A stretch of DNA of 64,000 bases. Origin: Tomitella biformata AHU 1821. Lineage in GTDB: Bacteria > Actinomycetota > Actinomycetes > Mycobacteriales > Mycobacteriaceae. Location: positions 1-64,000 of the forward strand of contig NZ_BAVQ01000025.1 of assembly GCF_000524475.1 (NCBI RefSeq). Reading direction: 5' to 3'. Below the pieces are notes generated by a model. It was not told the origin of the DNA. It was given only the letters and a program-made list of their open reading frames with translations, and ran no database searches. The translations under genes and the position numbers were made by a program. Positions 46,140-62,566 of this stretch are shown here, one piece after another; within the stretch, counting starts at the first letter, position 1, and each line of letters opens with the position of its first letter.

Positions 46140-47551
46140 AGTGCACCTGGCAGGGCGCGCAGCGGCGAATGCGCGGCCGAGACGGGCAACACTCTCCCCG
46201 TCGTCTCGTCGAACATCCCAAGCCCCCGCAGCCACTCCTCGAACTCCGGGGCCGGGCGCAATCCGAGCACCTGCCTGACATACAGCGCGTCGTGGAAGGA
46301 GGTGCTCTGGTAACCCAGCATCACGTCGTCGGCACCGGGCACCGCGATGTGAAAGGTCAGCCCCGCCACGGCGAGCAGCGTCAGCAGGTCATCCATATCG
46401 TCCTGGTCGGCCTCGGCGTGGTTGGTGTAGCACACGTCCACGCCCATCGGCAGGCCCAGCAGCTTCCCACAGAAGTGGTCCTCGAGCCCGGCGCGCACTA
46501 TCTGCTTGCCGTCGTAGAGGTACTCCGGGCCGATGAACCCGACCACCGTGTTCACCAGCAGCGGCTCCAGGATCTGCGCCACCGCGTAGGCCCGCGCCTC
46601 CAGGGTCTGCTGGTCCACCGGGCGGTTCCCGGTGCCCAGGTGCGCGCCGGCGCTCAGCGCGGACCCCTGACCGGTCTCCAGGTACATCACGTTCTGCCCG
46701 ACGGTGCCGCGCCGCAGCGAGCGGCCAGCCTCGTTACCCTGCCGCAGCAGCTCCAAGTTCACCCCGAATCCCGAGTTCGCGCCCTCAGTGCCGGCGATCG
46801 ACTGGAATACCAGGTCCACCGGCGCCCCGGCCTCGATCAGGTCGATGGTGGTGGTCACGTGCGAGAGCACGCAGGACTGGGTGGGGATCTCATAGCGCAG
46901 CCGGATCTCGTCGAGCAGGTGCAGCAGGTCGCTGGTGGCTTGCGGTGAGTCGGTCGCCGGGTTGATCCCGATGGTCGCGTCCCCGCAGCCGAGCAGCAGC
47001 CCGTCCAGGGTGGCCGCTGCGATCCCGCGCGGGTCGTCGGTCGGATGGTTCGGCTGCAGCCGGGTGGAAATCCGGCCCGGCAGGCCCAGCGTGGTTCGGA
47101 ACGCGCTGGTCACCCGGATCACCCGGGCCACGGCGATCAAATCCTGATTGCGCATCAGCTTGCTCACCGCCGCCACCATCTCGGGCGTGAGTCCGGACGA
47201 GACCCGGGCCAGGGTCACCGCCGCATCCGGCGTGGACGCAACCTGCAGCAGCCAGTCCCGCAGGCCGCCGACGGTCAGGTGCGAGACCTCGCCGTAGGCC
47301 ACGCGATCGTGCTTGTCGATGATCAGCCGGGTGATCTCGTCGTCCTCGTAGGGCACCACCAATTCGACCAGGAACGTGTCCAGCGGAACCTCTGCCAGCG
47401 CCCATTGTGCGGCGGCCCGCTCGCCGTCGCTCGCCGCCGCACAGCCGGCGAGCTCGTCGCCTGAACGCCGCGGGGTGGCCTTGGCCAGCAGGTCGATCAG
47501 CCCGTCGAAGGTGTGGTTGGTACCGCCGATGCTCTGGCTATACATCGTCAT
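46136..47551 (-). CDS. eutB: Ethanolamine ammonia-lyase large subunit
   Basis: The 471-residue subunit forms the TIM-barrel active site that converts ethanolamine to acetaldehyde and ammonia using adenosylcobalamin. Recognisable blocks are LSHVTTTIDLIEAGAPVDLV, QSIAGTEGANSGFGVNLELL, YLETGQGSALSAGAHLG and GLPMGVDVCYTNHAEADQDD. The length is that of the family. Its ATG overlaps the permease stop and its stop overlaps eutC. No microcompartment shell genes are present, indicating a cytosolic pathway. Confidence 0.95.
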   Translation of the reverse strand: MTMYSQSIGGTNHTFDGLIDLLAKATPRRSGDELAGCAAASDGERAAAQWALAEVPLDTFLVELVVPYEDDEITRLIIDKHDRVAYGEVSHLTVGGLRDWLLQVASTPDAAVTLARVSSGLTPEMVAAVSKLMRNQDLIAVARVIRVTSAFRTTLGLPGRISTRLQPNHPTDDPRGIAAATLDGLLLGCGDATIGINPATDSPQATSDLLHLLDEIRLRYEIPTQSCVLSHVTTTIDLIEAGAPVDLVFQSIAGTEGANSGFGVNLELLRQGNEAGRSLRRGTVGQNVMYLETGQGSALSAGAHLGTGNRPVDQQTLEARAYAVAQILEPLLVNTVVGFIGPEYLYDGKQIVRAGLEDHFCGKLLGLPMGVDVCYTNHAEADQDDMDDLLTLLAVAGLTFHIAVPGADDVMLGYQSTSFHDALYVRQVLGLRPAPEFEEWLRGLGMFDETTGRVLPVSAAHSPLRALPGAL

Positions 47552-48984
47552 CGAAGCTGCGCCTCCGCCTCCGCCAGTGCGGCGAACTCCTCCTCGGGCG
47601 CGCCGGCAACCAGTCTCTTCCGAGAGTAGAGGCCGAAGTACGCGAGCAACAGGGCGTAGATGCCCAGGGCGATCCCCGCCGCCAGCACATCGGCGAGGAA
47701 CGTCGCGACGATGGCCACGCAGGCCAGCGTCAGCGCAATCCCCGAGGTGACCGCCCCGCCAGGGGTGCGGTAGGGCCGCTCCATGTCGGGGGCCTTCCGG
47801 CGCAGCACGATGTGCGAAAGCATCATCAGCGCGTAGGAGACGACGGCGCCGAACACGGCCGCGTTCAGCAGCCTGTCGCCGGCCTCGGTCATCGACAGCC
47901 CGAAGCCGATCACGCCAGGCACGATCAGCGCCAGTGCGGGCACCTTGCGACCGCTGGTCAGCGACAGCGTCTTCGGGAGATAGCCGGCGCGAGAGAGCGC
48001 GAACGTCTGCCGGGAGTAGGCGTAGACGATGGAGAAGAACGAGGCGATCAGCCCGAACAGCCCGGCGTAGTTGACGAACGTCCCCATCATGCCTGAGCCG
48101 GTGGCCTGGTCCAGCGCCTGCACCAGCGGGTTCGACGAGTCCTTGAGCAGGTTCGAGCCGGCGCCGCCGGGGCCCAGGAACAGCACCAGCATCGCGAAGG
48201 TGAACAAGATGCCGAGCGCGGTCAGGATTCCCCTGGGCACGCTGCGGGCGGGATCTTTGGCCTCCTCTGCGGCCAGCGGGACGCCCTCGAGTGCCAGGAA
48301 GAACCAGATGCCGAACGGGATGGCCGCCCAGATGCCCATCGCGCCGTGGGGCAGGAAGGCGGAGCCGCCCGGGTCGGCGGGGATGTCGGTGAGGTTGGCA
48401 AAGGAGAAGTGCGGGATCATCCCGACGAAGAACACGATCAGCGCGACCACTGCGACGGCGGTGACCACGAACATCACCTTGAGCGCCTCGCCCGCGCCGA
48501 AGAGGTGGATACCCACGAAGATGGCATAGCAGGCCAGGTACACCGGCCAGCCCGCGGTTATCCCGAACAAGTTCAGCGACTGCACGTACCCGCCGATGAA
48601 GGTGGCGATCGCGGCTGGCGCGATGGTGTATTCGATCAGCACCGCAGCCCCGGTGGCGAAGCCGCCCCAGGGCCCGAGGGCGCGCCGGGCGAAGGTGTAG
48701 CCCCCGCCCGCCGTGGGCAGCGCGGAGGAGAGTTCAGCCAGCGACAGACACATGCACAGGTACATGAACGCGACGACGATGACCGCAATCAGCAGCCCGC
48801 CCCAGCCCCCCTTGACCAAGCCGAACTGCCAGCCGGCGTAGTCACCGGAGATCACAAAGGAGACCCCCAGCCCGGCTAGCAGCACCCATCCGGCCGAGCC
48901 CGATTTGAGCGTGCGTTTAGCCAGATAGCTGGCATCATCGGAGGCCGGCGGCGCGGCCCCGGCGGATACGTTTGAAACGGCCAT
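47548..48984 (-). CDS. eat: Ethanolamine permease (APC family)
   Basis: The 478-residue transporter has about twelve membrane segments, the N-terminal GWVLLAGLGVSFVISGDYAG and a VPLAAEEAKDPARSVPRGIL motif of amino acid-polyamine-organocation carriers. The block with eutB and eutC identifies ethanolamine as the substrate. The ATG at 48984 is chosen because the protein then starts just before the first conserved region; earlier in-frame codons give an unlikely Pro-rich leader. The stop overlaps the eutB start (ATGA). Confidence 0.92.
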   Translation of the reverse strand: MAVSNVSAGAAPPASDDASYLAKRTLKSGSAGWVLLAGLGVSFVISGDYAGWQFGLVKGGWGGLLIAVIVVAFMYLCMCLSLAELSSALPTAGGGYTFARRALGPWGGFATGAAVLIEYTIAPAAIATFIGGYVQSLNLFGITAGWPVYLACYAIFVGIHLFGAGEALKVMFVVTAVAVVALIVFFVGMIPHFSFANLTDIPADPGGSAFLPHGAMGIWAAIPFGIWFFLALEGVPLAAEEAKDPARSVPRGILTALGILFTFAMLVLFLGPGGAGSNLLKDSSNPLVQALDQATGSGMMGTFVNYAGLFGLIASFFSIVYAYSRQTFALSRAGYLPKTLSLTSGRKVPALALIVPGVIGFGLSMTEAGDRLLNAAVFGAVVSYALMMLSHIVLRRKAPDMERPYRTPGGAVTSGIALTLACVAIVATFLADVLAAGIALGIYALLLAYFGLYSRKRLVAGAPEEEFAALAEAEAQLR

Positions 48985-49083
48985 GCGGTGTCCTCTATCT
49001 CGGTCGGCAGGCGGAGGAGAGCTCGCCACCCTCCCCCCACGATTCAGAGATGGCGGAATGGCAGCGGGGGTTATGGAAACGGC

Positions 49084-49114
49084 GCGGGGGACGGCGGGGG
49101 GCAGCGTCCCCCGC
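49084..49114 (-). terminator. Hairpin between the aldehyde dehydrogenase and permease genes
   Basis: A 10-bp GC-rich stem (49084-49093 with 49105-49114) with an 11-nt loop follows the aldehyde dehydrogenase stop by 14 nt on the minus strand. No U tract follows, so it may only partially terminate transcription into the permease gene. Confidence 0.5.
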
Positions 49115-49128
49115 ACCGAGTTTGGGGG

Positions 49129-50652
49129 TCAGAAGAAGCCCTGGGCGCCTTCCGCGTAGGAGACCAAGAGGTTCTTGGTCTGCTGGTAGTGGTCCAGCAT
49201 CATGCGGTGGTTCTCGCGGCCGAATCCGGACTGCTTATAGCCGCCGAACGCGGCGTGCGCCGGGTACTGGTGGTACGTGTTGGTCCACACGCGGCCGGCC
49301 TGGATGTCGCGGCCGGCGCGGTAGGCCGTCGTGCCGTTGCGGGACCAGACGCCGGCGCCCAGCCCGTAGAGGGTGTCGTTGGCGATGCGGATCGCGTCGT
49401 CGTAGTCGGTGAAGGACGTGACGGCGACGACGGGGCCGAAGATCTCCTCCTGGAACACGCGCATGTCGTTGTTGCCGGCGAAAATGGTCGGCTGAACGTA
49501 GTAGCCGCCCGAGAGGTCGCCGCCCAGATCCGCGCGCTCACCGCCGGTGATGACCTTCGCGCCCTCGGCCTTGCCGATCTCGATGTACGAGAGGATCTTC
49601 TCGAACTGGTCATTGCTGGCCTGCGCGCCGATCATGGTCTCCGTGTCGAGGGGGTTGCCCTGTCGGACGGCCTTGGTGCGGATCGCGGCGAGCGAGAGGA
49701 AGTCGTCGTAGATCGAGCTCTGGATCAGCGCGCGCGACGGGCAGGTGCACACCTCGCCCTGGTTGAGCGCGAACATCGTGAAGCCCTCGAGCGCTTTGTC
49801 CTGGTAGGCGTCGTCGGCCTGCATCACGTCGTCGAAGAACACGTTGGGGCTCTTGCCGCCGAGCTCGAGGGTGACTGGGATCAGGTTCTGGCTGGCGTAC
49901 TGCATGATCAGCCGACCGGTGGTGGTCTCACCGGTGAAGGAGACCTTCGCGATGCGGTTGCTCGACGCGAGCGGCTTGCCGCACTCGACGCCGAAGCCGT
50001 TGACGATGTTGATGACGCCGGCGGGCAGCAGGTCCCCGATCAGGCTCATCAGGTAGAGGAGCGACGCCGGCGTCTGCTCTGCGGGCTTCATCACGATGGC
50101 GTTGCCGGCGGCCAGCGCGGGGGCCAGCTTCCAGGTGGCCATGAGAATCGGGAAGTTCCACGGGATGATCTGCGCGACGACGCCGAGGGGCTCGTGGAAG
50201 TGGTACGCGACCGTGTCCTCGTTGAGCTGCGAGAGCGAGCCCTCCTGGGCGCGGATGGCGCCGGCGAAGTAGCGGAAGTGGTCGATCGCGAGGGGAATGT
50301 CGGCGGCGAGGGTCTCGCGGACCGGCTTGCCGTTGTCCCAGGACTCGGCGACGGCGATCTTCTCGAGATTCTGCTCCATGCGGTCGGCGATCTTGTTCAA
50401 GATCAGCGCGCGCTCGGCGGGCGAGCTCTTGCCCCAGGCGGGGGCGGCGGCGTGGGCTGCGTCGAGGGCGAGCTCGACATCCTCGGCGGTGGACCGCGCC
50501 ACATCGCAGAACGCCTGGCCGTTCACCGGCGTGGTGTTCTCGAAGTACTGGCCCTTGACGGGGGCGACCCACTGGCCGCCGATCCAGTTGTCGTAGCGGG
50601 ACTCGAAGGACATCACTGAGCCGGGGGCACCCGGGCGTTCGTAAACAGTCAT
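49129..50652 (-). CDS. exaC: Aldehyde dehydrogenase, ExaC/acetaldehyde type
   Basis: The 507-residue NAD(P)-dependent enzyme has [33 protein letters not shown], the catalytic [14 protein letters not shown] Glu region and the nucleophile in [14 protein letters not shown]. It resembles acetaldehyde dehydrogenases that yield acetate and are usually partnered with DUF779 proteins. Here it should oxidise acetaldehyde from EutBC or from ethanol. AGGAG precedes the ATG. The GAF regulator gene ends 59 nt upstream on the same strand. Confidence 0.93.
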
Positions 50653-50711
50653 TCCGCACTCCTAGCGTCTGTGTCACTCGCCGGATCCTCGCCAGCTTGT
50701 GATTCAGAACA

Positions 50712-52043
50712 CTAGGAGCGGCTACGTTGCAACGAGGTTGCAGAGATGCCAAATCGCCGGTTCAACAGATCCAAATGGGCCCTGGCCTGCACATGCGCAG
50801 GTGATCCGGTGGGCATCAGCGCGGCGAGCGCCTGCCAGATGATGGGGTCGTCGCGGCCTGAGACCGTACCGGCCCACGCCTGTAGGAGCCGCGCGTCCCG
50901 GCTGCGCAGCACCGCGCCCCGCATCTCCGCGTCGAGCCGCTCGCGGATCTCCACCACGCCCGGCGCGAGCGAGTCCGCCAGCACCGGCCCCGGGTGGCCC
51001 TGCAGCGCCCCGACCACGTCTCCCCTTGCCAACGACTCCCGTACAACGTCGAGGTCCGTGCGCAGCGGCGCCTGCAACCGGTACGGCCGCGAGCCCACCG
51101 AGCCCGGCCCCAGCACCCGGCGCAGCCGCGACAACTCCGCACGCACAGTGACCGAGTCCAGGAAGCGCTCGTCGAGCAGCACCGCCAGTTGCTCCGCGCC
51201 CATCCCCTCCGAATGCTCCGCCAGCAGCAGCAGGATCTCCGCGTGCCGCGGAGATAGTTGAATTTCCGCGCCATTGCGGGTCAGCGTGGGCCGGGCGCGG
51301 CCCAGCACCGACAACAACGGCACCTGAGCCGGGGACTCCAACCCGCCGTCCTGCATCCTCCAGCGCAGCTCCAATTCCGCCGCCGCGACCGTCGCGCGCA
51401 CCAGCGTCAGCACCTCCGGGGCTGCGACGCGGGAGCCGCCGGTGATATCGATCGAGCCCAGGATCGCGCCGGTGACCGGATGGTGGACCGGCGCGGCGGC
51501 GCAGCTCCACCGGTGGACCTGCCGGCTGAAGTGCTCGGCGCCAAAGATCTGCACGCAGTGGTCCACCGCCAGCGCGGTGCCGGGCGCATTGGTCCCCACC
51601 GCCGCCTCGCTCCAGTCCGCGCCCTCCACGAACGCGATCGTGCCCGCGTGGTCGCGCATTTGAGTATCGCCCTCCACCCACAGCAGCCGACCGCTCGCAT
51701 CGCTGATGGCCACCAGCAGGCTCGAGTCCTCCGCGTCTTCGACCAGCAGCTTCCGCACCACCGGGAGCACCGTCGACATCGGGTGCGCGACGCGATACTC
51801 GGCCAGATCGGAGTTGTCCGACGCGAGCCGCCCGCCCGACTCCGGGTTGACCCCGCTGAGCTGGCTGCGCTCCCACGATTGGCGGATCACCGGGCGGACG
51901 TCGTCGCTGTAGTCGACCCCGTGACCGCCCGCCACAAACTGTCGGTGCGCGCGGCCCATCTGTGCCGCGAGCTCAACCTCGTCCTGCCCTGGCCGCAGCG
52001 CCATCCAAGGGCCGGACCGCCCTGCAGGCTCCCGCACTGACAT
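50712..52043 (-). CDS. GAF-domain transcriptional regulator (AcoR-like N-terminus, winged-helix C-terminus)
   Basis: The 443-residue protein has an N-terminal region with VRPVIRQSWERSQLSGVNPE and a GAF domain (WSEAAVGTNAPGTALAVDHC, WSCAAAPVHHPVTGAILGSI) as in acetoin regulator AcoR. It lacks the AAA+ sigma-54 domain. The C-terminal part has IQLSPRHAEILLLLAEHSEG and VTVRAELSRLRRVLGPG, like a winged helix. It likely senses acetaldehyde or ethanolamine-derived signals and controls the adjacent dehydrogenase. ATG at 52043 has AAGGGA upstream; a GTG seven codons earlier lacks one. Confidence 0.82.
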   Translation of the reverse strand: MSVREPAGRSGPWMALRPGQDEVELAAQMGRAHRQFVAGGHGVDYSDDVRPVIRQSWERSQLSGVNPESGGRLASDNSDLAEYRVAHPMSTVLPVVRKLLVEDAEDSSLLVAISDASGRLLWVEGDTQMRDHAGTIAFVEGADWSEAAVGTNAPGTALAVDHCVQIFGAEHFSRQVHRWSCAAAPVHHPVTGAILGSIDITGGSRVAAPEVLTLVRATVAAAELELRWRMQDGGLESPAQVPLLSVLGRARPTLTRNGAEIQLSPRHAEILLLLAEHSEGMGAEQLAVLLDERFLDSVTVRAELSRLRRVLGPGSVGSRPYRLQAPLRTDLDVVRESLARGDVVGALQGHPGPVLADSLAPGVVEIRERLDAEMRGAVLRSRDARLLQAWAGTVSGRDDPIIWQALAALMPTGSPAHVQARAHLDLLNRRFGISATSLQRSRS

Positions 52044-52099
52044 CCACGATCCCTTCCGCTCCACTCAACTGTAACTGAGGTCACAAAGGTCGCACAGCA

Positions 52100-53449
52100 C
52101 TAACCCACCCTCGGCAGCAGTGCCTGGAGGCTACGCGCACGCATTGCCCCCCACCACAGCCCTGCCCCGTAACCGACATCGTCGAGCCGCTTGAACAGCA
52201 CATAACGCATGGGGTCGAGGTTGCCCGGACCGTCATGCGTCGCCCAATCCGCAAGCCCCTCCGAGAGGGCGACTAGCGCGATCACCCGCCGGGCCCTCCT
52301 AGAACACAGCCCCACGAGGACCGCGAGGGGCCAATAGTGCCGACAGATGCCCGACGCCAACTGCCACAGCGCCCCGCCCAATCCCATGGCGAGCAACCGT
52401 GCGGCGGCCCGGCCCGGATGCGCGAGTCCGCCCAGGGTCCGGCGGAGCTTGAACCCCGCGAATCCCGTCGCCGCCACCGCCGACACCGCGCCGGTCTTGG
52501 TCCCGCTGAGCAGCGCCACTCCCGCCGCCGCCGACCACGGCGCGAGCACCAGCGGCGCGACATCGCCAGCGTGCCGTGCGGCGAGCGGGGCTGCGCCCAC
52601 ACCGTAGAACGCCTTGCGCCCGAGCCATGTCCGGAGCGTGGTCCGATGCTCGTGGGCCACCTGCGCAGCGGGCTCATAGCGCAACCGCCAGCCCGCCTCA
52701 TGCAGACGCCAGCACAGGTCCACGTCCTCCGCCACGTGCATCGACTCGTCGAAGCCATCCTCGAGGGCTGCCCGACGCACCATCATCGCAGCACTCGGCA
52801 CATATGCCACCGGCGAACGCGGCACCACCGGCCCGGGCTTCGCGCCGAGGTCCAGGGAGGAGCGAATCTGCTCATATCGGCCGAGCGCGCCGGCTGGATC
52901 GCCGAGGCTGATGATCCGCGGCGCCACCAGGGCCAGCGTCGGGTCCGCGAAGTGCGCGGAGAGGATCGCCAGCCAGCCCGCGACCGGCACCGCGTCGGAA
53001 TCGATGAACACCACGAACTCGGTGGTGGCCGCGGCCAATCCAGTATTGCGTGCGGCGGCAGGTCCCCTGCACTGCGCGTGCCGGATCACGTGCGGGGCCT
53101 GGATCGGGATCGCTGAGCCGTCGTCGACCACAATCACGTGCTGTGCCAGCGACTTGAGCAGCCTGTCGATGCCGGGCTGGTTGTCCTTGACCGGCACGAT
53201 CACCGTCACCTCCGCCACCGGGCGTGGACCGAGGTCCGGGTGCGCGATGCCGAGGTCGAGGAACCTGCGGGCCAGCGCGGCCGTGGCGGGGCTGGTGACC
53301 GTCAACTCGCCGTCCGCGATCAGTTCCGCCGCTTGGGGTTTGAGCCGCAGCAGCGTGGTCGGCGAGCCGCCGAGCAGCGCCGCGCCGCCGTCGAGCCGGC
53401 GTACCGCGGGGTCGATCCGCACCCGGAACCCCGCGGGGAGCTCGGTCAT
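52100..53449 (-). CDS. mftF: Mycofactocin glycosyltransferase
   Basis: The 449-residue GT2 enzyme has VIVPVKDNQPGIDRLLKSLA, VIVVDDGSA, the DxD-type FIDSDAVPV and MHVAEDVDLCWRLHEAGW. Two or more hydrophobic segments lie in the C-terminal 150 residues, suggesting membrane association. MftF adds a beta-1,4-glucan chain to the (pre)mycofactocin core. The first 60 residues resemble a PqqD/MftB-like segment. Its ATG overlaps the mftE stop (ATGA). Confidence 0.92.
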   Translation of the reverse strand: MTELPAGFRVRIDPAVRRLDGGAALLGGSPTTLLRLKPQAAELIADGELTVTSPATAALARRFLDLGIAHPDLGPRPVAEVTVIVPVKDNQPGIDRLLKSLAQHVIVVDDGSAIPIQAPHVIRHAQCRGPAAARNTGLAAATTEFVVFIDSDAVPVAGWLAILSAHFADPTLALVAPRIISLGDPAGALGRYEQIRSSLDLGAKPGPVVPRSPVAYVPSAAMMVRRAALEDGFDESMHVAEDVDLCWRLHEAGWRLRYEPAAQVAHEHRTTLRTWLGRKAFYGVGAAPLAARHAGDVAPLVLAPWSAAAGVALLSGTKTGAVSAVAATGFAGFKLRRTLGGLAHPGRAAARLLAMGLGGALWQLASGICRHYWPLAVLVGLCSRRARRVIALVALSEGLADWATHDGPGNLDPMRYVLFKRLDDVGYGAGLWWGAMRARSLQALLPRVG

Positions 53450-54120
53450 GCCAATCTCCCATGCTTGTCCGGGGTCCACGCTGCGACCGCGTCGGACACC
53501 GACAGGCGCAGCCGCGCTAGGAGCTCCGCGCCCTCCGCCGCGCTGGCGCCCGCCGGATCGCCCAGCACACCGTTGGGGCTCACCGCCGCGACCCCGCCCG
53601 CGCGCATCCGCTCCCACAACTGCGGCAGCGGCTCGGTGTTGCCGGCCGCCGCCCGCTCGAGCCGGACCACGTGCGGGGCCAGGTGCAACAGCAGCGAGGT
53701 CTCGGTGCGCCCAGCGTGCGCGTCCCCGCCCGGGATGATCGGCGTCCACCAGGCCGCGTCGCGCCCCTCATAGCGCAGCCGTTGGACCGCTTTCGCGAGA
53801 GTGGGCACGTTGCCGCCGTGCCCGTTCACGAAGAGCAGTCGCGGCGCCCACTCGCAGGCCGAGCGGCCGAACTCTAGGAGCACCGAGTACAGGGTCTCGG
53901 CGCCGATGGACACCGTCCCCGCGAATCCCTGGTGCTCGCCGCTCGCCCCATATGACAGCGCCGGGGCGAGCAACACGTTGGGCAGGGCCTCCGCGATCGC
54001 GGTGGCGATGCGCGTATCTGTGTCCAGCGGCAGGTGCGGGCCATGCTGCTCGACGGCGCCGACAGGCACCACCAGCAACGCGTCGACCACCTCATTCGAG
54101 GTCGAATCTTCTAGTCTCAC
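53446..54120 (-). CDS. mftE: Mycofactocin precursor peptide peptidase (creatininase family)
   Basis: The 224-residue metallopeptidase has the metal ligands Glu24, His26 and the Asp of PLDTD (GAVEQHGPHLPLDTDTR), the FVNGHGGNVP motif and HAGRTETS. MftE hydrolyses the MftC-modified MftA peptide to release the Val-Tyr-derived core AHDP. The length is typical. The GTG at 54120 overlaps the stop of the upstream flavoprotein gene (GTGA), and long open frames upstream are not part of this gene. Confidence 0.93.
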   Translation of the reverse strand: MRLEDSTSNEVVDALLVVPVGAVEQHGPHLPLDTDTRIATAIAEALPNVLLAPALSYGASGEHQGFAGTVSIGAETLYSVLLEFGRSACEWAPRLLFVNGHGGNVPTLAKAVQRLRYEGRDAAWWTPIIPGGDAHAGRTETSLLLHLAPHVVRLERAAAGNTEPLPQLWERMRAGGVAAVSPNGVLGDPAGASAAEGAELLARLRLSVSDAVAAWTPDKHGRLA

Positions 54121-56039
54121 AGCGCTTCCCCCACCCTCTGCCCCTCGATGATCGCAGCGTGGGCCCGCCGCGGCGCGAGGGCATCGCCGATGCGGTGGAG
54201 CTCCCGGCCTGAGCCTTTGAGCTCCCGCCACAGCGCGTCCTCCGGCGCCTGCTGCCCAGCGCCGACAATCCAATCCCAGTGCTCCACGGCCACCTCGCCA
54301 ATCGAATGGTGCAGCATCGCCACGCCCTCGTCGTCGGAGCCAATCACGACACGGTCCGTGAGTTGCGTGATCCCGAGCCCGTGCGCGCGCATGAGCCATC
54401 CTTCCCGGTCGAGGGTGACGCCAAGATCCTGGCCCACCACCATGCCATCGGTGCAGATGGTGACGTCGCAGCCGCGTTCCGCGAGCAGTTCTGCCACCGA
54501 GGTGCCCGGGTGGAAACCGAGGCCGTCGATCACCAGCACCTTGCCCGTGGGGCGCACTCGGTCCCCCAGCACATCCCGGACGTCGCAGTACCCCTGCCCC
54601 GCCCAGGCTGGCCTGATCGGTCTCGCGCCGGTGGCAATCACGACGACATCCGCCGCCAGGTCCGCCGCCGTCGCAGTGGCCTCTAGCTGGAGCTGGACGC
54701 TGGCCGCCCTGCATCGAGCTGCCAAATCCCTTGTGAGCAATGTCAAATCCGTACGGTACGGGGCCCTGGCCGCCTCGGCGATCTGCCCGCCCAGCGCACC
54801 CGAGCGCTCCATCAGCGTGACGCGGTGCCCACGCTCCGCCGCGACTGCCGCCGCCTGCATCCCGGCCGGCCCGCCGCCGACGACGATCACGGACTTCCCT
54901 CTCAGGGCTGGCGTCGGCAGCGCCGTCGCCTCGTGTCCCGTCCGGGGATTGACCACACAGCCGATCGCGCGGTTGAAGCCCACCCGGCCGATGCACTCTT
55001 GGTTGCAGGCCAGGCAGGTCTGCCTGATCTTGTTGCCGTCCATGGCCTTTTGCGCGAAGTCCGGGTCCGCGATCTGGCCGCGCACCACTCCCACCAGGTC
55101 GCATTGGCCGGTGGCGAGGGCCTTTTCCGCCGCAGCCGGATCGGTGAACCGCCCCACGCCGATGACCGGCACCTGCAGCACCTCTTTGAAAGCGGTCGGA
55201 ATATGCATGGCGTAGCCACGGGGTGTCGCCATCGAGGCCTCGATCAGATGCAGTGTGCTCGTCGCCAATCCGATAGAGGTGTTGACGTAGTCGACGTGGC
55301 GCTCCACCATTTGTGCGACCTCTAGGGCCTCCCCCATCTCGATGCCTCCGGCGACCCGCTCTTCCCCAGCCAGCCGCACGCCCAGTATCAGGTCTGGCCC
55401 CAGCGCCGCGCGGATCGCGGCCAACGTCTCGATGAGGAATCGCGCACGGTTCTCGAGCAAGCCGCCGTACTCGTCCGTGCGCAGATTCGTGCCGGGCGCG
55501 AGGAAGCCGCGGATCAGCGAGGCCTGCGAAGCCTGCAGTTCGACGCCGTCGAATCCGCCCTGGCGGCAATGCTCGGCGACCTTGGCGTAGCCAGCGATGA
55601 GCTGGTCGATCTCGGCCTGTGTCAGCGCCTTCGGGACCTCGCGGAACATCGGGTCCGGCACCGCGCTCGGCGCCCACAGGGGACGGCCGGTGTGCATCGA
55701 GCTGCCCTGCGCGCCATTGTGGTTGAGCTGCGCGAGGATGACCGCGCCGTGCTTGTGCGCCGCGGCGGTGATGGTTCTATATCCGTCGACAACCTCTGGC
55801 CGATAGCCCTCGATGAGCTTCTCGTAAGGGCGGTCCGAGGGATGCACCGTGTGCTCCTCGGTGATGATCAGCCCCGCCCCGCCCCTGGCCCGCGCCTCGT
55901 AATAGGCCGCGTGCTGCGCCGTGGGCAATCCGTTGACGGCGAAATTCGTCAGGTGCGCGGAGAACACCACTCTATTGCGAATCGTTCTGCTGCCCAATTC
56001 AACCGTTGAGAGCAAGCGTGAATAGCCACGTTCAATCAT
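54117..56039 (-). CDS. Mycofactocin-system FadH/OYE-family oxidoreductase 1
   Basis: The 640-residue flavoenzyme combines an old-yellow-enzyme TIM barrel (residues 1 to about 350: RNRVVFSAHLTNFA, GGFDGVELQASQASLIRGFL), a four-Cys [4Fe-4S] motif (CLACNQECIG) and an NAD/FAD domain (SVIVVGGGPAGMQAAAVAAE). This is the 2,4-dienoyl-CoA reductase-like architecture. Two such genes commonly travel with mycofactocin genes but their reaction is unknown. It is coupled to mftE by a GTGA overlap. Upstream it is cut off from the rest of the mft operon by the HNH gene, so it needs its own promoter in the 88-nt gap. Confidence 0.9.
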   Translation of the reverse strand: MIERGYSRLLSTVELGSRTIRNRVVFSAHLTNFAVNGLPTAQHAAYYEARARGGAGLIITEEHTVHPSDRPYEKLIEGYRPEVVDGYRTITAAAHKHGAVILAQLNHNGAQGSSMHTGRPLWAPSAVPDPMFREVPKALTQAEIDQLIAGYAKVAEHCRQGGFDGVELQASQASLIRGFLAPGTNLRTDEYGGLLENRARFLIETLAAIRAALGPDLILGVRLAGEERVAGGIEMGEALEVAQMVERHVDYVNTSIGLATSTLHLIEASMATPRGYAMHIPTAFKEVLQVPVIGVGRFTDPAAAEKALATGQCDLVGVVRGQIADPDFAQKAMDGNKIRQTCLACNQECIGRVGFNRAIGCVVNPRTGHEATALPTPALRGKSVIVVGGGPAGMQAAAVAAERGHRVTLMERSGALGGQIAEAARAPYRTDLTLLTRDLAARCRAASVQLQLEATATAADLAADVVVIATGARPIRPAWAGQGYCDVRDVLGDRVRPTGKVLVIDGLGFHPGTSVAELLAERGCDVTICTDGMVVGQDLGVTLDREGWLMRAHGLGITQLTDRVVIGSDDEGVAMLHHSIGEVAVEHWDWIVGAGQQAPEDALWRELKGSGRELHRIGDALAPRRAHAAIIEGQRVGEAL

Positions 56040-56084
56040 TTCTCACAACTCTCATATTTTGCCAAAAAGAATTGCTGAGATACC

Positions 56085-56113
56085 TTGACTGTATTCGCAT
56101 ATTCCGATAAAAT
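56085..56113 (+). promoter_or_regulatory. Consensus sigma-70-type promoter for the DUF222-HNH gene
   Basis: TTGACT (56085-56090) and TAAAAT (56108-56113) are separated by exactly 17 bp in an unusually AT-rich stretch of this high-GC window. The predicted start of transcription falls just before the ATG at 56128, giving little or no leader. Confidence 0.8.
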
Positions 56114-56127
56114 AGACTGTACATTCG

Positions 56128-57810
56128 ATGGGATCGGGGGTGACGATGAGGCCAAAGAAGCGTGCCCTCCAAGCCTTTGAACTGACTTCTATATCCGATA
56201 GCTCCCGGCTTCAGCTGCCCGAAGTCCCGTCCGGCGCAGCCGCCGCCGACATTCTTTCCGCCATTGCTGAATGCGACCGTAATGAATCGTTCATCGCATA
56301 CACAAGATATGCCCATGTGGCCCTGCTCCATGCTGATGTGAGCACCGTTCCACCGGATGCGGATAAGCGGCTTCTGGATGATTTCGCGATGACGACCGTG
56401 GAGCTCTCCGCGGTGCGACGCGCCACCAAGTCCGCGGCCACCGCGACTTTGGCAGAGGCCCTCGCGATGGAGTCCCGCATCCCGCTGATCGGGGAATGCC
56501 TGCGCGATGGCCACATCAGCCCCCGCCAGTTCCAGCGCCTCGTCACGTTCACCGATCTCATCGACCGCGAGGACTACGCGAGTCAGGTCGACGCCGCTAT
56601 CGCGGCGGAGTTGCGCCTCGACGGCACCTGGTCCGATCCCCGGCTGCGCGACCTCGTCTACCGGGTCATCTCCCGGCATGATCCCGATGCGGTCCGCCGG
56701 CGCCACGAGGCCGCGAAGAGGGACCGCGGCTGCCATGCGTACCCGCTGGCGGACGGCATGGCCGAGCTCCGCATCACCGCCACTCCGGAGGACGTCGACT
56801 TGGCGATGGCCGCCGTCCGGGCCCTCGCCTTGACGGTTTGCGAGCATGATGGCCGCAGCGCCTGGGCTCGGCAATCTGATGCCGCGGTCAGCCGCCTGCA
56901 GGGTGTCCCCTTCGCATGCCAATGCGACCGGCCCGACTGCACCTCCGCTGCCAACGGTCTCGAACTCAGCGAGCAGCACGCGCGCATTGTGGTCCACGTG
57001 GTCTGCGGGTGCGAGACATTGGACGATGAGGGGCATCAGCGGGAGTCCGGACCTCAGCCCGGGCCCAGCGAACCCACGCCCGAAGACCCAGCGCCCGAAG
57101 ATCCAGCGCCGACGGATGAGCCCAGTGGCGCGGACACTCCCGGCTTTTTGAATGGCCACGGCCTGATCTCCGCCGGGCATGTGCGCGATATCGCCGCCCG
57201 GCCTGATGCCGTCGTCCGATTCCTCAACAAGCCTGGCGAAGCGCTCGCGACCCACCTTCCTAGCGATCCGTACCGATTCTCCCGCGCGTTGGACACCTTC
57301 ATCCGGGCCAGGGACGGCTACTGCGTCTTTCCCGGCTGCAATTGCCCCGCATGGGCAGGAGATCTCGACCATGTCGGCGAGTTCGACCATCGAAATCCCG
57401 CCCGGGGTGGCCAAACCAGCTCCCACAATGGCAACGCCAAATGTCGCTTCCACCACCTCGTGAAGACCTTTACCGACTGGCTGGACGACCAATACCTCGG
57501 CCCAGACGGTCGCACCCGTATCGAGTTCCGATCGCCGCGGGGACTGATCGTCGAGGGGCGTGGCCACACCAACGAGGTCCTGTTCCCAGGATTGCGGGAC
57601 ATCGAATTCCACTCCCCGGCCCCGCCACAGACCGCGAGGCCCAGCCCCGAGGACCGTGCCCCGCCGCGGCGCCGGCGCACGCGCATCGCCGACAAGCTCG
57701 CCCGGCGGCGCCACGAACGAAAATTGAACAGGCTGGACCGACTGTCCGGCGCGCACAAGCGCGCCCACCCGGCCACGGGCATCAGTCTCCCGACGGACCC
57801 GGACTTCTGA
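56128..57810 (+). CDS. DUF222/HNH endonuclease domain protein (13E12 type)
   Basis: The 560-residue protein has an N-terminal DUF222 domain (ATATLAEALAMESRIPLIGE, ISPRQFQRLVTFTDLIDRED), a Pro/Glu-rich linker (about 310-335), and an HNH domain (RDGYCVFPGCNCP, DLDHVGEFDHR, NGNAKCRFHHL). A basic tail follows. It is a paralogue of the partial gene at 1-987. It sits on the strand opposite to the mft operon, between the two FadH/OYE genes. Its 5' quarter is richer in A+T than neighbouring genes. The exact start is uncertain (ATG 56128, GTG 56140 or ATG 56146). Nuclease activity is inferred; biological role unknown. Confidence 0.92.
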   Translation: MGSGVTMRPKKRALQAFELTSISDSSRLQLPEVPSGAAAADILSAIAECDRNESFIAYTRYAHVALLHADVSTVPPDADKRLLDDFAMTTVELSAVRRATKSAATATLAEALAMESRIPLIGECLRDGHISPRQFQRLVTFTDLIDREDYASQVDAAIAAELRLDGTWSDPRLRDLVYRVISRHDPDAVRRRHEAAKRDRGCHAYPLADGMAELRITATPEDVDLAMAAVRALALTVCEHDGRSAWARQSDAAVSRLQGVPFACQCDRPDCTSAANGLELSEQHARIVVHVVCGCETLDDEGHQRESGPQPGPSEPTPEDPAPEDPAPTDEPSGADTPGFLNGHGLISAGHVRDIAARPDAVVRFLNKPGEALATHLPSDPYRFSRALDTFIRARDGYCVFPGCNCPAWAGDLDHVGEFDHRNPARGGQTSSHNGNAKCRFHHLVKTFTDWLDDQYLGPDGRTRIEFRSPRGLIVEGRGHTNEVLFPGLRDIEFHSPAPPQTARPSPEDRAPPRRRRTRIADKLARRRHERKLNRLDRLSGAHKRAHPATGISLPTDPDF

Positions 57811-57833
57811 TCCGACGCTGCCCCGTCGCCGAG

Positions 57834-59666
57834 TCATCCCAGCACCGCAGCCGCGGCCTGCCGGCCCTCTCGCACGGCCTCCAATGCGGTTCGCGGCGCC
57901 ACACAGTCTCCCACCCGGTTCTGGCCAGCAGAGACCTCGAGGGGCAAGCCCGGCGTGCAGTCCACGACCACCGCGCAGCTCACCGTGGTCACCGCCTTGG
58001 TATGCCGATCCTCGATCACCGCAAACCCGCCCGTCACCGACCGCAGTTCCGCGTAGACGTGCCTGGTGATGCCGGCCCGCTGCAGTCGCACGTTGGCCCC
58101 CACCAGATCCCCCGCTCGCGCAAGGCCTACGCCGACAACGGGATCCGGAGTGACGATGGCGACTTCGCGGTCCTGGGCTTTGAGCCACTCGGCGACTGCC
58201 ACGCCCTCTGGGCCACCGATGGGATCATTCACCAGCACGGGCCCCGAGGGCAACGGCGCACCGGCCAGCACCTCGGCCGCGGTCAGCACGCTGTCGCAGG
58301 GGAAGCCCACCGGCCGCGCGGTGCTTCCGGTCGCCCAGATCACGGGGCCGTCGAAGTTCTTGGCACGCTGGGCCGAGTCGAGAACTCCGAGTTCGATTCG
58401 CACGCCGAGGTCTCGGCACCGTGCCAGCAGCCAGTCCGGTAGCAGGGCCAGGCGCGGGCGGGAGGCCGCGGCGGTCAGCAGCATTCCACCGACTCGGTCC
58501 TGCCGCTCCAGAACCGTCACCTGAACCCCGCCCGCAGCCAGGACGCGCGCGGCTTCGAGGCCGGCGACACCGGCGCCGATCACGAGAACCTCCTGGGCCG
58601 CCGTGCCGACCACCGCCCGCACTCGGGGGTTGACGACACAGTCGACCAGCGGATTGCGCACGTCCCGCACCAGGCACGCCTGGTTGCACAGCAGGCACGG
58701 CCTGGGCGCCCGAGATCCGCTGCGCAGGACGGCGACAAGATCCGGCTCCGCGATCTGGGCCCGCGTCATCTCCACGAGGTCCGCGGTGCCGGCGGCCAGC
58801 GCGGCCGCCGCCATCGCGGGGTCGACAATGCTGCCCTGCAACACCACGGGGACGCCGTCCGCCGCGATCCGCAGCTGCCGGCAGAGGTCACGGTTGAATC
58901 CGGGCTCGGCGGCCATCCCGGGACGGTAGTCGTCCACGCTCATCAGGCCACCTCGCACGACGGTCAGCAGGTCGACCAGCGGCGCAACTAGACGGATGGT
59001 CTCGGCCGCCGAGGAGGGGGTGATCCCGCCCCAGGAGGCCATTTCGTCGCAGGTCAGGCGCAGCGCCAGGATCCCGCCGCCGAGCACGGCCCGCACCGCC
59101 CGCAGGACCGCCAGCAACGGGCCCGGGTCGGCGGGCGTGTTGGTCAGGTCCGAGAGGAATTGCCGCAGCAGTGATCTCGGGCCCACGTCGATCTCAACGC
59201 CGGCCATGCCGGAGTCGGCGGCCAGACGGGCGGCCGCCGCGAAACCACCTACCAGCGCCTCAACCTCGGCGGGCCCCATCACCATCGGCAACTCGCGGGT
59301 GGCGGGGTCGGGCACACTCGCCGGGCCCCACAGCACCGACTGGCTGTAGGCACTGGAGCCTTGGAGGCCGGTGTGGCCGAGGCCGGCCAACAGGATTGCG
59401 CCGTGCGGGCGGCAGGCCGCGACAATAGCCTGCCAACCCAGAAAACAGTCTGCGGCGAGCGGTGCGCGCTCATAGGGCCAGTCGCTGGGGTGGACCGACG
59501 CGACCTCGGTGACGATGACGCCCGCGCCGCCGCGTGCCCGAGCGGCGTAGTAGTCGACGTGGGCGGGTGAAAGGGCTCGGCCCACACAGAGATTGGTCTC
59601 GTGTGGGCCGAACATCACTCTTGATGGCGCCGTGTGACCGGCAATCGTGAAACTACCGGTCAGCAC
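57834..59666 (-). CDS. Mycofactocin-system FadH/OYE-family oxidoreductase 2
   Basis: The 610-residue protein has the OYE barrel (SRVMFGPHETNLCVG, YYAARARGGAGVIVTEVASV), the iron-sulfur cysteines CLLCNQACLV and the nucleotide-binding VLVIGAGVAGLEAARVLAAG. It is homologous to the 54117-56039 protein but more divergent in the barrel. The GTG at 59666 is 5 nt after the mftD stop; a much longer open frame upstream is read-through of the mftD region. It is convergent with the HNH gene, with 23 nt between stops. Confidence 0.9.
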   Translation of the reverse strand: MLTGSFTIAGHTAPSRVMFGPHETNLCVGRALSPAHVDYYAARARGGAGVIVTEVASVHPSDWPYERAPLAADCFLGWQAIVAACRPHGAILLAGLGHTGLQGSSAYSQSVLWGPASVPDPATRELPMVMGPAEVEALVGGFAAAARLAADSGMAGVEIDVGPRSLLRQFLSDLTNTPADPGPLLAVLRAVRAVLGGGILALRLTCDEMASWGGITPSSAAETIRLVAPLVDLLTVVRGGLMSVDDYRPGMAAEPGFNRDLCRQLRIAADGVPVVLQGSIVDPAMAAAALAAGTADLVEMTRAQIAEPDLVAVLRSGSRAPRPCLLCNQACLVRDVRNPLVDCVVNPRVRAVVGTAAQEVLVIGAGVAGLEAARVLAAGGVQVTVLERQDRVGGMLLTAAASRPRLALLPDWLLARCRDLGVRIELGVLDSAQRAKNFDGPVIWATGSTARPVGFPCDSVLTAAEVLAGAPLPSGPVLVNDPIGGPEGVAVAEWLKAQDREVAIVTPDPVVGVGLARAGDLVGANVRLQRAGITRHVYAELRSVTGGFAVIEDRHTKAVTTVSCAVVVDCTPGLPLEVSAGQNRVGDCVAPRTALEAVREGRQAAAAVLG

Positions 59667-59671
59667 TGTTC

Positions 59672-60847
59672 TCAGGCGCCGAGGACGCGCTCGAAGCCGT
59701 CGGGGATAACCAGGTCGGCCGGGCTCAGGTCCGCGATCGTCGAGTGGCCCAGGCCCAGCACGGCGGAGTCGATGCCGCTGCGCAGGATGTCCAGCACGTT
59801 CTCGACGCCAGCCTGCCCGTTGGCCGCGAGGCCCCACAGGTAGCCGCGGCCGATCATGACGGCCTTCGCGCCGAGGGCCACGGCCTTGACGACGTCGGAG
59901 CCACGGCGGATGCCGCCGTCGAGGAGGACCTCGACGTCGTCGCCGACGGCCTTGGCGATCGAGGGCAGCGCGCGGATCGGCGCGGGGGTGCCGTCGAGGT
60001 TGTTGCCGCCGTGGTTGGACACGGAGATGGCGGAGCAACCGGCGTCGACGGCGCGCTTGGCGTCGTCGACGCGCATGACGCCCTTGAGCATGAACGGCCC
60101 GCCCCACTGCTCGCGCAGCCAGGCGACGTCCTCCCACGTGGGCAGCGGGGTGCCCATCCACTCGCCGTACGCGCCGAAGAACGTGGGCGCGGGCTGGCCG
60201 GGCTTGATCAGGTTCGGCGTGGTGAGGTCCGGGATTTTGCCGGCCTTGGCGAAGTCCAGAAGCCAGCCCGGCTTGGTGATCGCGCTCGGCGCGTTGTCCC
60301 ACATCGCCTTGAGGCTCATCTTCTCGGGGATGGCGGGGCTGCCCCAGTCGCGGCCCATCGAGAAGGACCAGTCCAGGGTCATGATCAGGCCGGTGGCGCC
60401 GGCCGCGCGGGCCCGCTCCATGCGCTGGACGAGGGTGTCGCGGTCGCCCACCCAGTACATCTGGAAGAAGGTCTGCGGGTTCGCCGCGGCAACCTCCTCG
60501 ATGGACTTCGACGCGAAGGAGCTCAGCCCCATCGCGACGCCGCGGGCGGCGGCGGCGCGGGCGACGGCCACCTCGCCGTCGGGGTGCACGGCCTGCACGC
60601 CGGTGGGCGAGATCAGGACCGGCATCGAGATGGGCTGGCCCATGACCTCGGTCGCGAGCTCGCGGTTGTCCTTCAGCCCCGCGACGTGCGGGGCGAACCC
60701 GAGCTCGCTGAAGGCCGCGACATTGTCATCGACCGTAAGGCCCTTTTCGGAACCGGCGACCAGCGCCATGTAGACCGGCTTGGGCAGGCGCTTCTTCGCA
60801 CGCCGCTGTGCTTCGGCAACGGTTTCAAACCAGGCGTTCTTCGCCAT
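59672..60847 (-). CDS. mftD: Premycofactocin synthase (FMN-dependent)
   Basis: The 391-residue protein belongs to the FMN-dependent alpha-hydroxy-acid dehydrogenase family, with LISPTGVQAVHPDGEVAVAR, FFQMYWVGDRDTLVQRMERA, the active-site His in AISVSNHGGNNLDG and LLDGGIRRGSDVVKAVALGA. MftD oxidatively deaminates AHDP to give premycofactocin, the redox-active core. It lies 51 nt downstream of mftC and 5 nt upstream of the second OYE gene. Confidence 0.95.
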   Translation of the reverse strand: MAKNAWFETVAEAQRRAKKRLPKPVYMALVAGSEKGLTVDDNVAAFSELGFAPHVAGLKDNRELATEVMGQPISMPVLISPTGVQAVHPDGEVAVARAAAARGVAMGLSSFASKSIEEVAAANPQTFFQMYWVGDRDTLVQRMERARAAGATGLIMTLDWSFSMGRDWGSPAIPEKMSLKAMWDNAPSAITKPGWLLDFAKAGKIPDLTTPNLIKPGQPAPTFFGAYGEWMGTPLPTWEDVAWLREQWGGPFMLKGVMRVDDAKRAVDAGCSAISVSNHGGNNLDGTPAPIRALPSIAKAVGDDVEVLLDGGIRRGSDVVKAVALGAKAVMIGRGYLWGLAANGQAGVENVLDILRSGIDSAVLGLGHSTIADLSPADLVIPDGFERVLGA

Positions 60848-60898: not shown

Positions 60899-62131
60899 TT
60901 ACCGCATGCCCGCGAGGGGGTTCTCGTCGCACGCGCGTGACGGCGGCTGGGTGACCAGCACCGTCAACGGGATCGACGGGAGCGCCTTGCGGCGGTTGCC
61001 GGTGCGCGATTGATCGACGCTGGACTTGGGCAGCACGCCGTTGTCGCGGTCCGCCAGGAGCTGCTCGCCGTAGCCCTGCACGCACTCGGGGTCCGGGCCG
61101 TCCATGGGCAGGCCGGTGAAGAACTTAGCCGCCATGCAGCCGCCGCGGCAGGAGTCGAAGAAGTCGCACGACGCGCACGCGCCAGCGGACTGTGGCTCGC
61201 GCAGCTCCAGGAACAGATCCGAGGTCTGCCAGACCTGCTTGAAGCCGCCGTCGCGCAGCACGTTGCCAGCCAGGAACTCCTCGTGGATGGCGAACGGGCA
61301 GGCGTAGACGTCGCCGAGCGGGTCGATCAGGCATACGACGCGGCCCGCGCCACAGAGGTTGAGGCCGGGTAGCGCGCCGCCGCCGCTGGCCTCGCCGAAC
61401 GCGCTCAAGTGGAAGAACGAGTCGCCGGTGAGGATGCCCTCGCCGTTCGCGACGAGCCAGTCGTAGAGCTCGCGCTGCTGCTCCTGCGTCGGGTGCAGGT
61501 CGTCCCACACGTCCGCGCCACGGCCAGAGGGACGCAGGCGGGTGATGCGCAGCGTGGCACCGTACTTGTCCGCGAGCGCCTTGAACTCGTCGAGCTGGCT
61601 CACGTTGTGGCGGGTGACGACGACGGAGATCTTCGCGTCCTTGAAGCCGGCGTCCTTGAGGTGCTGCAGTGCGCGGGTGGCCATGTCGAACGAGCCCTTG
61701 CCGCGCACCTCGTCGTTGACCTCGGCGGTGGCGCCGTCAATGGAGATCTGCACATCGACGTAATCCGACGCGGCGAGCCGCTCGGCGACCTTCTGGTCGA
61801 TCTTGACGCCGTTGGTGGAGAACTTCACGCCCACCTGGTGATCGGTGGCGTAGTCGACGAGCTCCCAGAAGTCGGAGCGAACGGTCGGCTCGCCGCCGCC
61901 GATGTTGACGTAGAACACCTGCATGCGCTGCAGCTCGTCGATGACGGCCTTGCACTGCTCGGTGCTGAGCTCATCGGGGTTGCGCCGGCCCGAGGACGAG
62001 AGGCAGTGCACACAGGACAGGTTGCAGGCGTAGGTCAGCTCCCAGGTCAGACAGATGGGCGCGTCGAGGCCCTTCTCGAACTGGTCGACAAGACGACCGA
62101 CGGGGGCCGGGCGCGAGAGTGTTGAGGTCAT
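60899..62131 (-). CDS. mftC: Mycofactocin radical SAM maturase
   Basis: The 410-residue radical SAM enzyme has the CX3CX2C cluster motif at Cys36, 40 and 43 (ACNLSCVHC), the GGEP motif (NIGGGEPTV) and a C-terminal SPASM region with multiple cysteines (GACASCDFFDSCRGGC, then PECVQGYG). MftC decarboxylates the C-terminal Tyr of MftA and forms the Val-Tyr carbon-carbon bond. The start ATG is 33 nt downstream of the mftB stop. Confidence 0.96.
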   Translation of the reverse strand: MTSTLSRPAPVGRLVDQFEKGLDAPICLTWELTYACNLSCVHCLSSSGRRNPDELSTEQCKAVIDELQRMQVFYVNIGGGEPTVRSDFWELVDYATDHQVGVKFSTNGVKIDQKVAERLAASDYVDVQISIDGATAEVNDEVRGKGSFDMATRALQHLKDAGFKDAKISVVVTRHNVSQLDEFKALADKYGATLRITRLRPSGRGADVWDDLHPTQEQQRELYDWLVANGEGILTGDSFFHLSAFGEASGGGALPGLNLCGAGRVVCLIDPLGDVYACPFAIHEEFLAGNVLRDGGFKQVWQTSDLFLELREPQSAGACASCDFFDSCRGGCMAAKFFTGLPMDGPDPECVQGYGEQLLADRDNGVLPKSSVDQSRTGNRRKALPSIPLTVLVTQPPSRACDENPLAGMR

Positions 62132-62163: not shown

Positions 62164-62460
62164 CTACGCGGCGGACTGGCCGGAACGCACGAGCATGTTG
62201 GACTGCACGAGGGTTTCCAGTGCGCGCAGATACATAGGCTCCGACGCTTCGTCGATGCCTGCCGCGTCGATCGCGGCTCGAATATTCGGATGGTCGGGCA
62301 GCGACTGCACGATCCCCACGATGGTCCGGTTCTTCAGGAACGAGAGCTTCCTGGTGCCAAAGTGGTAGAGCAGAGCGCCGAACGGCTCGGGGCGCAGCTC
62401 CACCTTGGGGTGCAGCCGCCACCCGGGCTCGAGCTCGAACCCGGGGGCGACGTCACTCAT
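62164..62460 (-). CDS. mftB: Mycofactocin precursor-binding chaperone
   Basis: The 98-residue PqqD-like RiPP recognition element has ELEPGWRLHPKVELRPEPFG, LLYHFGTRKLSFLKNRTIVG and a helical C-terminus. MftB binds the MftA leader and presents it to MftC. It begins 1 nt after the mftA stop, so expression is coupled. Confidence 0.95.
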   Translation of the reverse strand: MSDVAPGFELEPGWRLHPKVELRPEPFGALLYHFGTRKLSFLKNRTIVGIVQSLPDHPNIRAAIDAAGIDEASEPMYLRALETLVQSNMLVRSGQSAA

Positions 62461-62461
62461 C

Positions 62462-62566
62462 TCAGTAAACCCCGCACATGCCGTCGATCGAGACCTCTTC
62501 GATCAGCGATTCTTCGACAATGCCGGTGTCCACGGCTACGGCCGGGGCTGCGGAACGATCAGACAT
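62462..62566 (-). CDS. mftA: Mycofactocin precursor peptide
   Basis: A 34-residue ORF runs from the ATG at 62566 to TGA at 62462-62464. It ends in the invariant core SIDGMCGVY, whose terminal Val-Tyr becomes the cofactor; the acidic VEESLIEEV segment before it is the leader. A GGAGG ribosome site precedes the ATG. The gene is easily missed because of its size, but its position directly before mftB and the C-terminus make it certain. Confidence 0.97.
   Translation of the reverse strand: MSDRSAAPAVAVDTGIVEESLIEEVSIDGMCGVY

Follow-up and report, generated by a model that had tools for sequence, protein, structure and literature searches.

How does an antisense gene come to lie inside a mycofactocin (mft) cluster whose own genes are all intact? 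The question is raised by a 64,000-nucleotide stretch of contig NZ_BAVQ01000025.1 (the window) from Tomitella biformata AHU 1821, in which a gene of the DUF222-HNH family separates two oxidoreductase genes, OYE_1 and OYE_2. The published draft of AHU 1821T comprises 4,709,534 bp in 113 contigs at 69.3% GC (PMC3924374); the assembly used here holds 4.71 Mb in 112 contigs.

Anatomy of the interrupted cluster

An NCBIfam profile search finds mftB-F, OYE_1 and OYE_2 on the minus strand; with mftA, recognised by its C-terminus, they make up an intact mycofactocin cluster (Table 1). As an earlier note on this DNA had it, the cluster is split by a plus-strand DUF222-HNH gene, which is the single gene between OYE_1 and OYE_2; the labels that the note gave to the two OYE genes were swapped, and the profiles place OYE_1 upstream and OYE_2 downstream of the break. 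Beyond mftF (44844-52064) lie genes that resemble a GAF-type regulator, an aldehyde dehydrogenase, a permease and an ethanolamine ammonia-lyase, named by eye, with a profile scan for the regulator only.

Table 1. Features of the interrupted mycofactocin locus (positions in the window)
Feature	Position	Strand	Basis
mftA precursor	62465..62563	-	C-terminus IDGMCGVY at 62465; start predicted, approximate
mftB	62164..62460	-	TIGR03967
mftC	60899..62131	-	TIGR03962
mftD	59672..60847	-	TIGR03966
Mycofactocin OYE_1 (mycofact_OYE_1)	57834..59675	-	TIGR03996, 737 bits
ATGA at OYE_1 end, holds OYE_1 stop TGA	57834..57837	-	Same as the overlap in 15 adjacent loci
Proposed inserted unit: leader, promoter, DUF222-HNH gene, 3' tail	56040..57833	+	Interval from OYE_2 start to OYE_1 stop
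AT-rich leader, GC 40.6%	56040..56145	+	Layout common to same-genome paralogues
Sigma-70-type promoter TTGACT-17-TAAAAT	56085..56113	+	10/12 matches, 0.3 expected in shuffles
DUF222-HNH (13E12-type) gene, 554 aa	56146..57810	+	PF02720, PHROG 333, intact HNH residues
23-bp tail between HNH stop and OYE_1 stop	57811..57833	+	Sequence
ATGA at OYE_2 start, holds start ATG	56036..56039	-	Edge comparison
Mycofactocin OYE_2 (mycofact_OYE_2)	54117..56039	-	TIGR03997, 889 bits
mftE	53446..54132	-	TIGR03964
mftF	52100..53488	-	TIGR03965

The interrupting gene and its family

The DUF222 match of the plus-strand gene product scores 121.8 bits against a Pfam cut-off of 24.4. Its HNH residues (DH...N...HH plus cysteine pairs) are intact and align in register with those of paralogues, and it matches the HNH endonucleases of PHROG 333 (E 4.8e-5); Pfam HNH models give no match at E 0.001. 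The protein is a putative nuclease, predicted to cut DNA. A longer frame opens at 56128; ATG 56146 is the more likely start, since it is preceded by GGGGGTG, as in paralogues. Other searches gave little: (i) viral contigs, phages and plasmids hold no full-length relative; (ii) PADLOC reports no defence-system match; (iii) solved structures offer no meaningful match; and (iv) a structure predicted from the single sequence is unusable (mean pLDDT 38).

DUF222-HNH genes are abundant in Mycobacteriales. The source genome has 20 DUF222 matches dispersed through it, and at E<=1e-30 the subfamily of the window gene has 11 matches in this genome and none in four congeners. Within this dispersed family, known but poorly understood, the gene is unexceptional; our literature search found no account of how the family's members spread. 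Two papers ascribe mobile-element characteristics to the 13E12/REP13E12 genes of Mycobacterium tuberculosis (PMC5005354, citing Davis 2002; PMC10589994), with which the window gene shares the pairing of DUF222 and HNH, many dispersed copies per genome and repeat-like behaviour. The window gene nevertheless represents a distinct subfamily and has no convincing LexA/SOS box, a trait reported for some M. tuberculosis 13E12 members but not for the whole family: the best candidate in the window leader has 8/12 matches, a score reached by 26% of shuffles, and the best across the family leaders have 8-9/12, little or no better than shuffles.

A leader that belongs to the gene

Does the gene bring its own control region? 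The promoter claimed in the earlier note is there: TTGACT (56085-56090) and TAAAAT (56108-56113) are separated by a 17-bp spacer, and no second site of this kind occurs within 2.1 kb. Leaders of same-genome paralogues at other places have the layout of the window leader: first an AT-rich block, then TAAAnT as the -10 region, next a block resembling TACRTTCGA, and lastly GGGGGTG and the ATG. Moreover, a 14-nt block, GACTGTACATTCGA, is common to the window and the paralogue on contig C57 at an equal distance from the -10 box, a match length reached in no shuffle. The common layout and this block argue that the leader belongs to the DUF222-HNH unit. In the entire window no 106-bp stretch has a lower GC content than the one starting here, at 56021 (34.9%), in agreement with the AT-rich 5' end remarked upon earlier; since the leader is shared by the family, its composition is not a mark of foreign or recent DNA, and we rejected the idea that it is foreign debris. 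At the other end, the HNH gene and OYE_1 converge with their stop codons 23 bp apart, and no terminator-like site is seen in this tail (57811-57833).

The OYE_1/OYE_2 junction in other genomes

We surveyed 86 mft loci from the same taxonomic family and beyond (Rhodococcus globerulus is counted twice). An SDR gene lies between OYE_1 and OYE_2 in 57 of the 86, co-directional with them and with a stop that often overlaps the OYE_2 start (GTGA); the two OYE genes are adjacent in 21, other genes intervene in six and two loci lack a call. A DUF222-HNH gene occupies this junction in none of the ~85 other loci. In every adjacent locus (21/21) the stop codon of OYE_1 runs into the start codon of OYE_2; the overlap reads ATGA in 15 and GTGA in six.

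Against this background both edges of the interval can be read. OYE_1 ends in ...CTGGGATGA and OYE_2 begins with ATGATTGAACG, and thus 56040-57833 is flanked by ATGA twice, a 4-bp match that may be a target-site duplication; the two edges show no terminal inverted repeats. OYE_1 also ends in ATGA in 13 of 58 SDR-type loci (22%), and for this reason the pair supports a duplication without proving it; by our estimate, chance could account for it with a probability of roughly 5-10%.

Close relatives provide no exact empty allele at this junction. Three congeners, G002-G004, have the two OYE genes in view, and between these lie transglutaminase-like, RPF-like and SnoaL-like genes, partly antisense, with the first two kinds named by eye (loci L038, 7112-9320; L039, 7830-9938; L040, 11660-13725). 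OYE_1 of L039 has a longer C-terminus.

Sister copies and empty sites

If the family inserts at all, paralogues elsewhere in the genome might show it. At one paralogue, C44a, colinear anchors lie 2.06 kb apart in the window's genome and 276-277 bp apart in congeners G002 and G003; these clear empty sites indicate that the family does insert as ~1.8-kb units. Two convergent genes flank this copy, which lies between their ends; one of them encodes a mycosin-like protease (named by eye). A second site, C44b, measures 298 bp in G001 versus 1804 bp, and is the weaker case because G002-G004 carry other genes there. No common target is seen among the flanks of the paralogues. The close pair G002/G004 was also considered as a source of exact empty sites and rejected, since its DUF222 differences reflect decay or replacement rather than clean insertion; an example of decay is a G002 DUF222 gene (L173) cut by a ~0.5-kb internal deletion in G004 (C41:14999-18488).

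The window itself opens (1-987) inside another DUF222-HNH gene, behind which, at about 1007-1043, lies a long inverted repeat, ACTGTGCTCACCTCGG...CCGAGGTGAGCACAGT; a related inverted repeat follows the copy on contig C93 (L057). In this assembly several of the DUF222-HNH copies stand at the end of a contig, and near-identical stretches among them probably broke it there.

Recurrence at the neighbouring junction

The earlier note had held that a recent insertion should not be found as the same interrupted order in distant genera. The surveyed loci bear this out only in part: none has the gene at the same junction, but in two other genera a DUF222-HNH gene interrupts the cluster at the next one. 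Of 72 loci compared at OYE_2|mftE, 17 carry such a gene or what remains of one, 10 in genus g23 (which contains Rhodococcus globerulus) and seven in genus g10, where several copies are truncated. Eleven of the 17 copies run antisense, converging with the OYE gene upstream of them, and six are sense. Genus g23 has both orientations (sense in L211, L226, L227 and L229-L231; antisense in L209, L213, L221 and L070), and most intact pairs across orientations are 66-83% identical, which suggests that the gene was inverted in place or re-entered. Like the window gene, these genes interrupt an mft cluster; unlike it, they do so at a neighbouring junction, and their proteins show about 17-28% identity to that of the window, arguing that the window event was independent of theirs. 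Sequence comparison thus implies at least two independent DUF222-HNH entries into the mft cluster, and there may have been more. The family and its scattering were already known; what the relatives show is its repeated entry into the mft cluster.

How did the unit arrive?

We consider it probable, though well short of certain, that a DUF222-HNH unit of ~1.8 kb, with its own leader and promoter, was inserted antisense at an ATGA overlap of OYE_1 and OYE_2. Insertion as such is well supported by the interval's uniqueness among ~85 mft loci, its size (a single family unit accounts for nearly all of it), the ATGA at both edges and the empty sites of C44a. The unit would have entered where the OYE_1 stop and the OYE_2 start overlapped, and the 4-bp overlap was probably duplicated, allowing both reading frames to survive. 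Mechanistically, this was likely an ectopic insertion: the unit would have entered a break with staggered ends that were then filled in, the cut possibly having been made by the HNH protein. Homing into an uninterrupted copy of that site is the less likely course. The unit resembles insertion sequences in being a ~1.8-kb single-gene unit with dispersed copies and a possible 4-bp duplication, but it holds no other gene, no transposase and no terminal inverted repeats that we could find.

Could the HNH gene instead have taken the place of an SDR or other gene? This junction is variable, with an SDR gene in 57 of 84 resolvable loci and still other genes in the three congeners; however, 56040-57833 contains no SDR remnant and is about as long as one family unit, and the ATGA pair at its edges is in keeping with an ancestor whose OYE genes were adjacent, the SDR-type loci ending in ATGA notwithstanding. 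Replacement appears unlikely. A homing-like process, favoured in the earlier note, fares worse. An HNH nuclease would have cut an uninterrupted OYE_1/OYE_2 allele and been copied in from a same-site donor by recombination, and the intact HNH motif, which the window protein has in common with free-standing HNH homing endonucleases, as well as the AT-rich OYE_2 5' end, which could stem from co-conversion of the flank, would suit it. But no donor with such an order exists among ~85 loci, the DUF222-HNH proteins at OYE_2|mftE are distant (about 17-28% identity), and the family differs from homing endonucleases in occupying dispersed, unrelated sites, several within this one genome, with no sign that a cognate empty allele is targeted; moreover, homing leaves no target duplication, so the ATGA pair, if it is one, speaks for another process. 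We regard homing as quite improbable. Least credible of all is an assembly artefact, in which a contig built from short reads was wrongly joined across a repeated HNH gene: the published assembly was made with Velvet from 101-bp reads (PMC3924374) and DUF222-HNH copies do lie at contig ends, but this copy shares no exact stretch longer than 18 bp, well short of the 75-bp hash length, with the other DUF222 copies retrieved, and both flanks are in register with relatives.

Was insertion of the unit recent, as had been supposed? Against its nearest paralogues, full or C-terminal, the window copy shows 55-59% identity, and against others ~45%, and the adjoining 5' codons of OYE_2 are already unusual; recency is not supported. 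Codons 9-33 of OYE_2 have a GC content of 0.507, whereas the 76 relatives measured go no lower than 0.573 (mean 0.658, s.d. 0.039), which means that the AT-rich zone crosses the insertion edge, taking in the first ~80 bp of OYE_2. This AT-rich start (55960-56039) may be an adaptation of the gene's own translation start after coupling was lost, but the congeners with lost coupling have no such low GC at the OYE_2 start, and L039 is among the highest.

A broader proposal can be offered tentatively, and we think it rather doubtful: DUF222-HNH genes might be autonomous one-gene mobile units (leader, promoter, gene and short tail) which cut in a staggered manner, generate a ~4-bp duplication and favour short gene junctions; the mft cluster would then be one of their favoured targets, with independent entries at two neighbouring junctions.

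Consequences for the cluster

How are the downstream genes transcribed? With an antisense gene in between, OYE_2-mftE-mftF must have their own promoter, unless transcription crosses that gene; a separate promoter for mftE and mftF would thus be a logical consequence of the split, as the earlier note had reasoned, and OYE_2-mftE-mftF would now be transcribed separately. A scan of 55900-58000 gave no sigma-70-like promoter on the minus strand; actinobacterial promoters often match the sigma-70 consensus poorly. Antisense genes, transglutaminase-like and RPF-like, also part OYE_1 from OYE_2 in three congeners, and a split cluster therefore seems to be tolerated in the genus.

The locus suggests that a cofactor cluster tolerates splitting into two transcription units. 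Since the overlap is conserved, both edges of the insertion can be compared with it, and empty sites are available for a sister copy, making target choice and duplication testable; the locus is a good site for studying how DUF222-HNH genes move.
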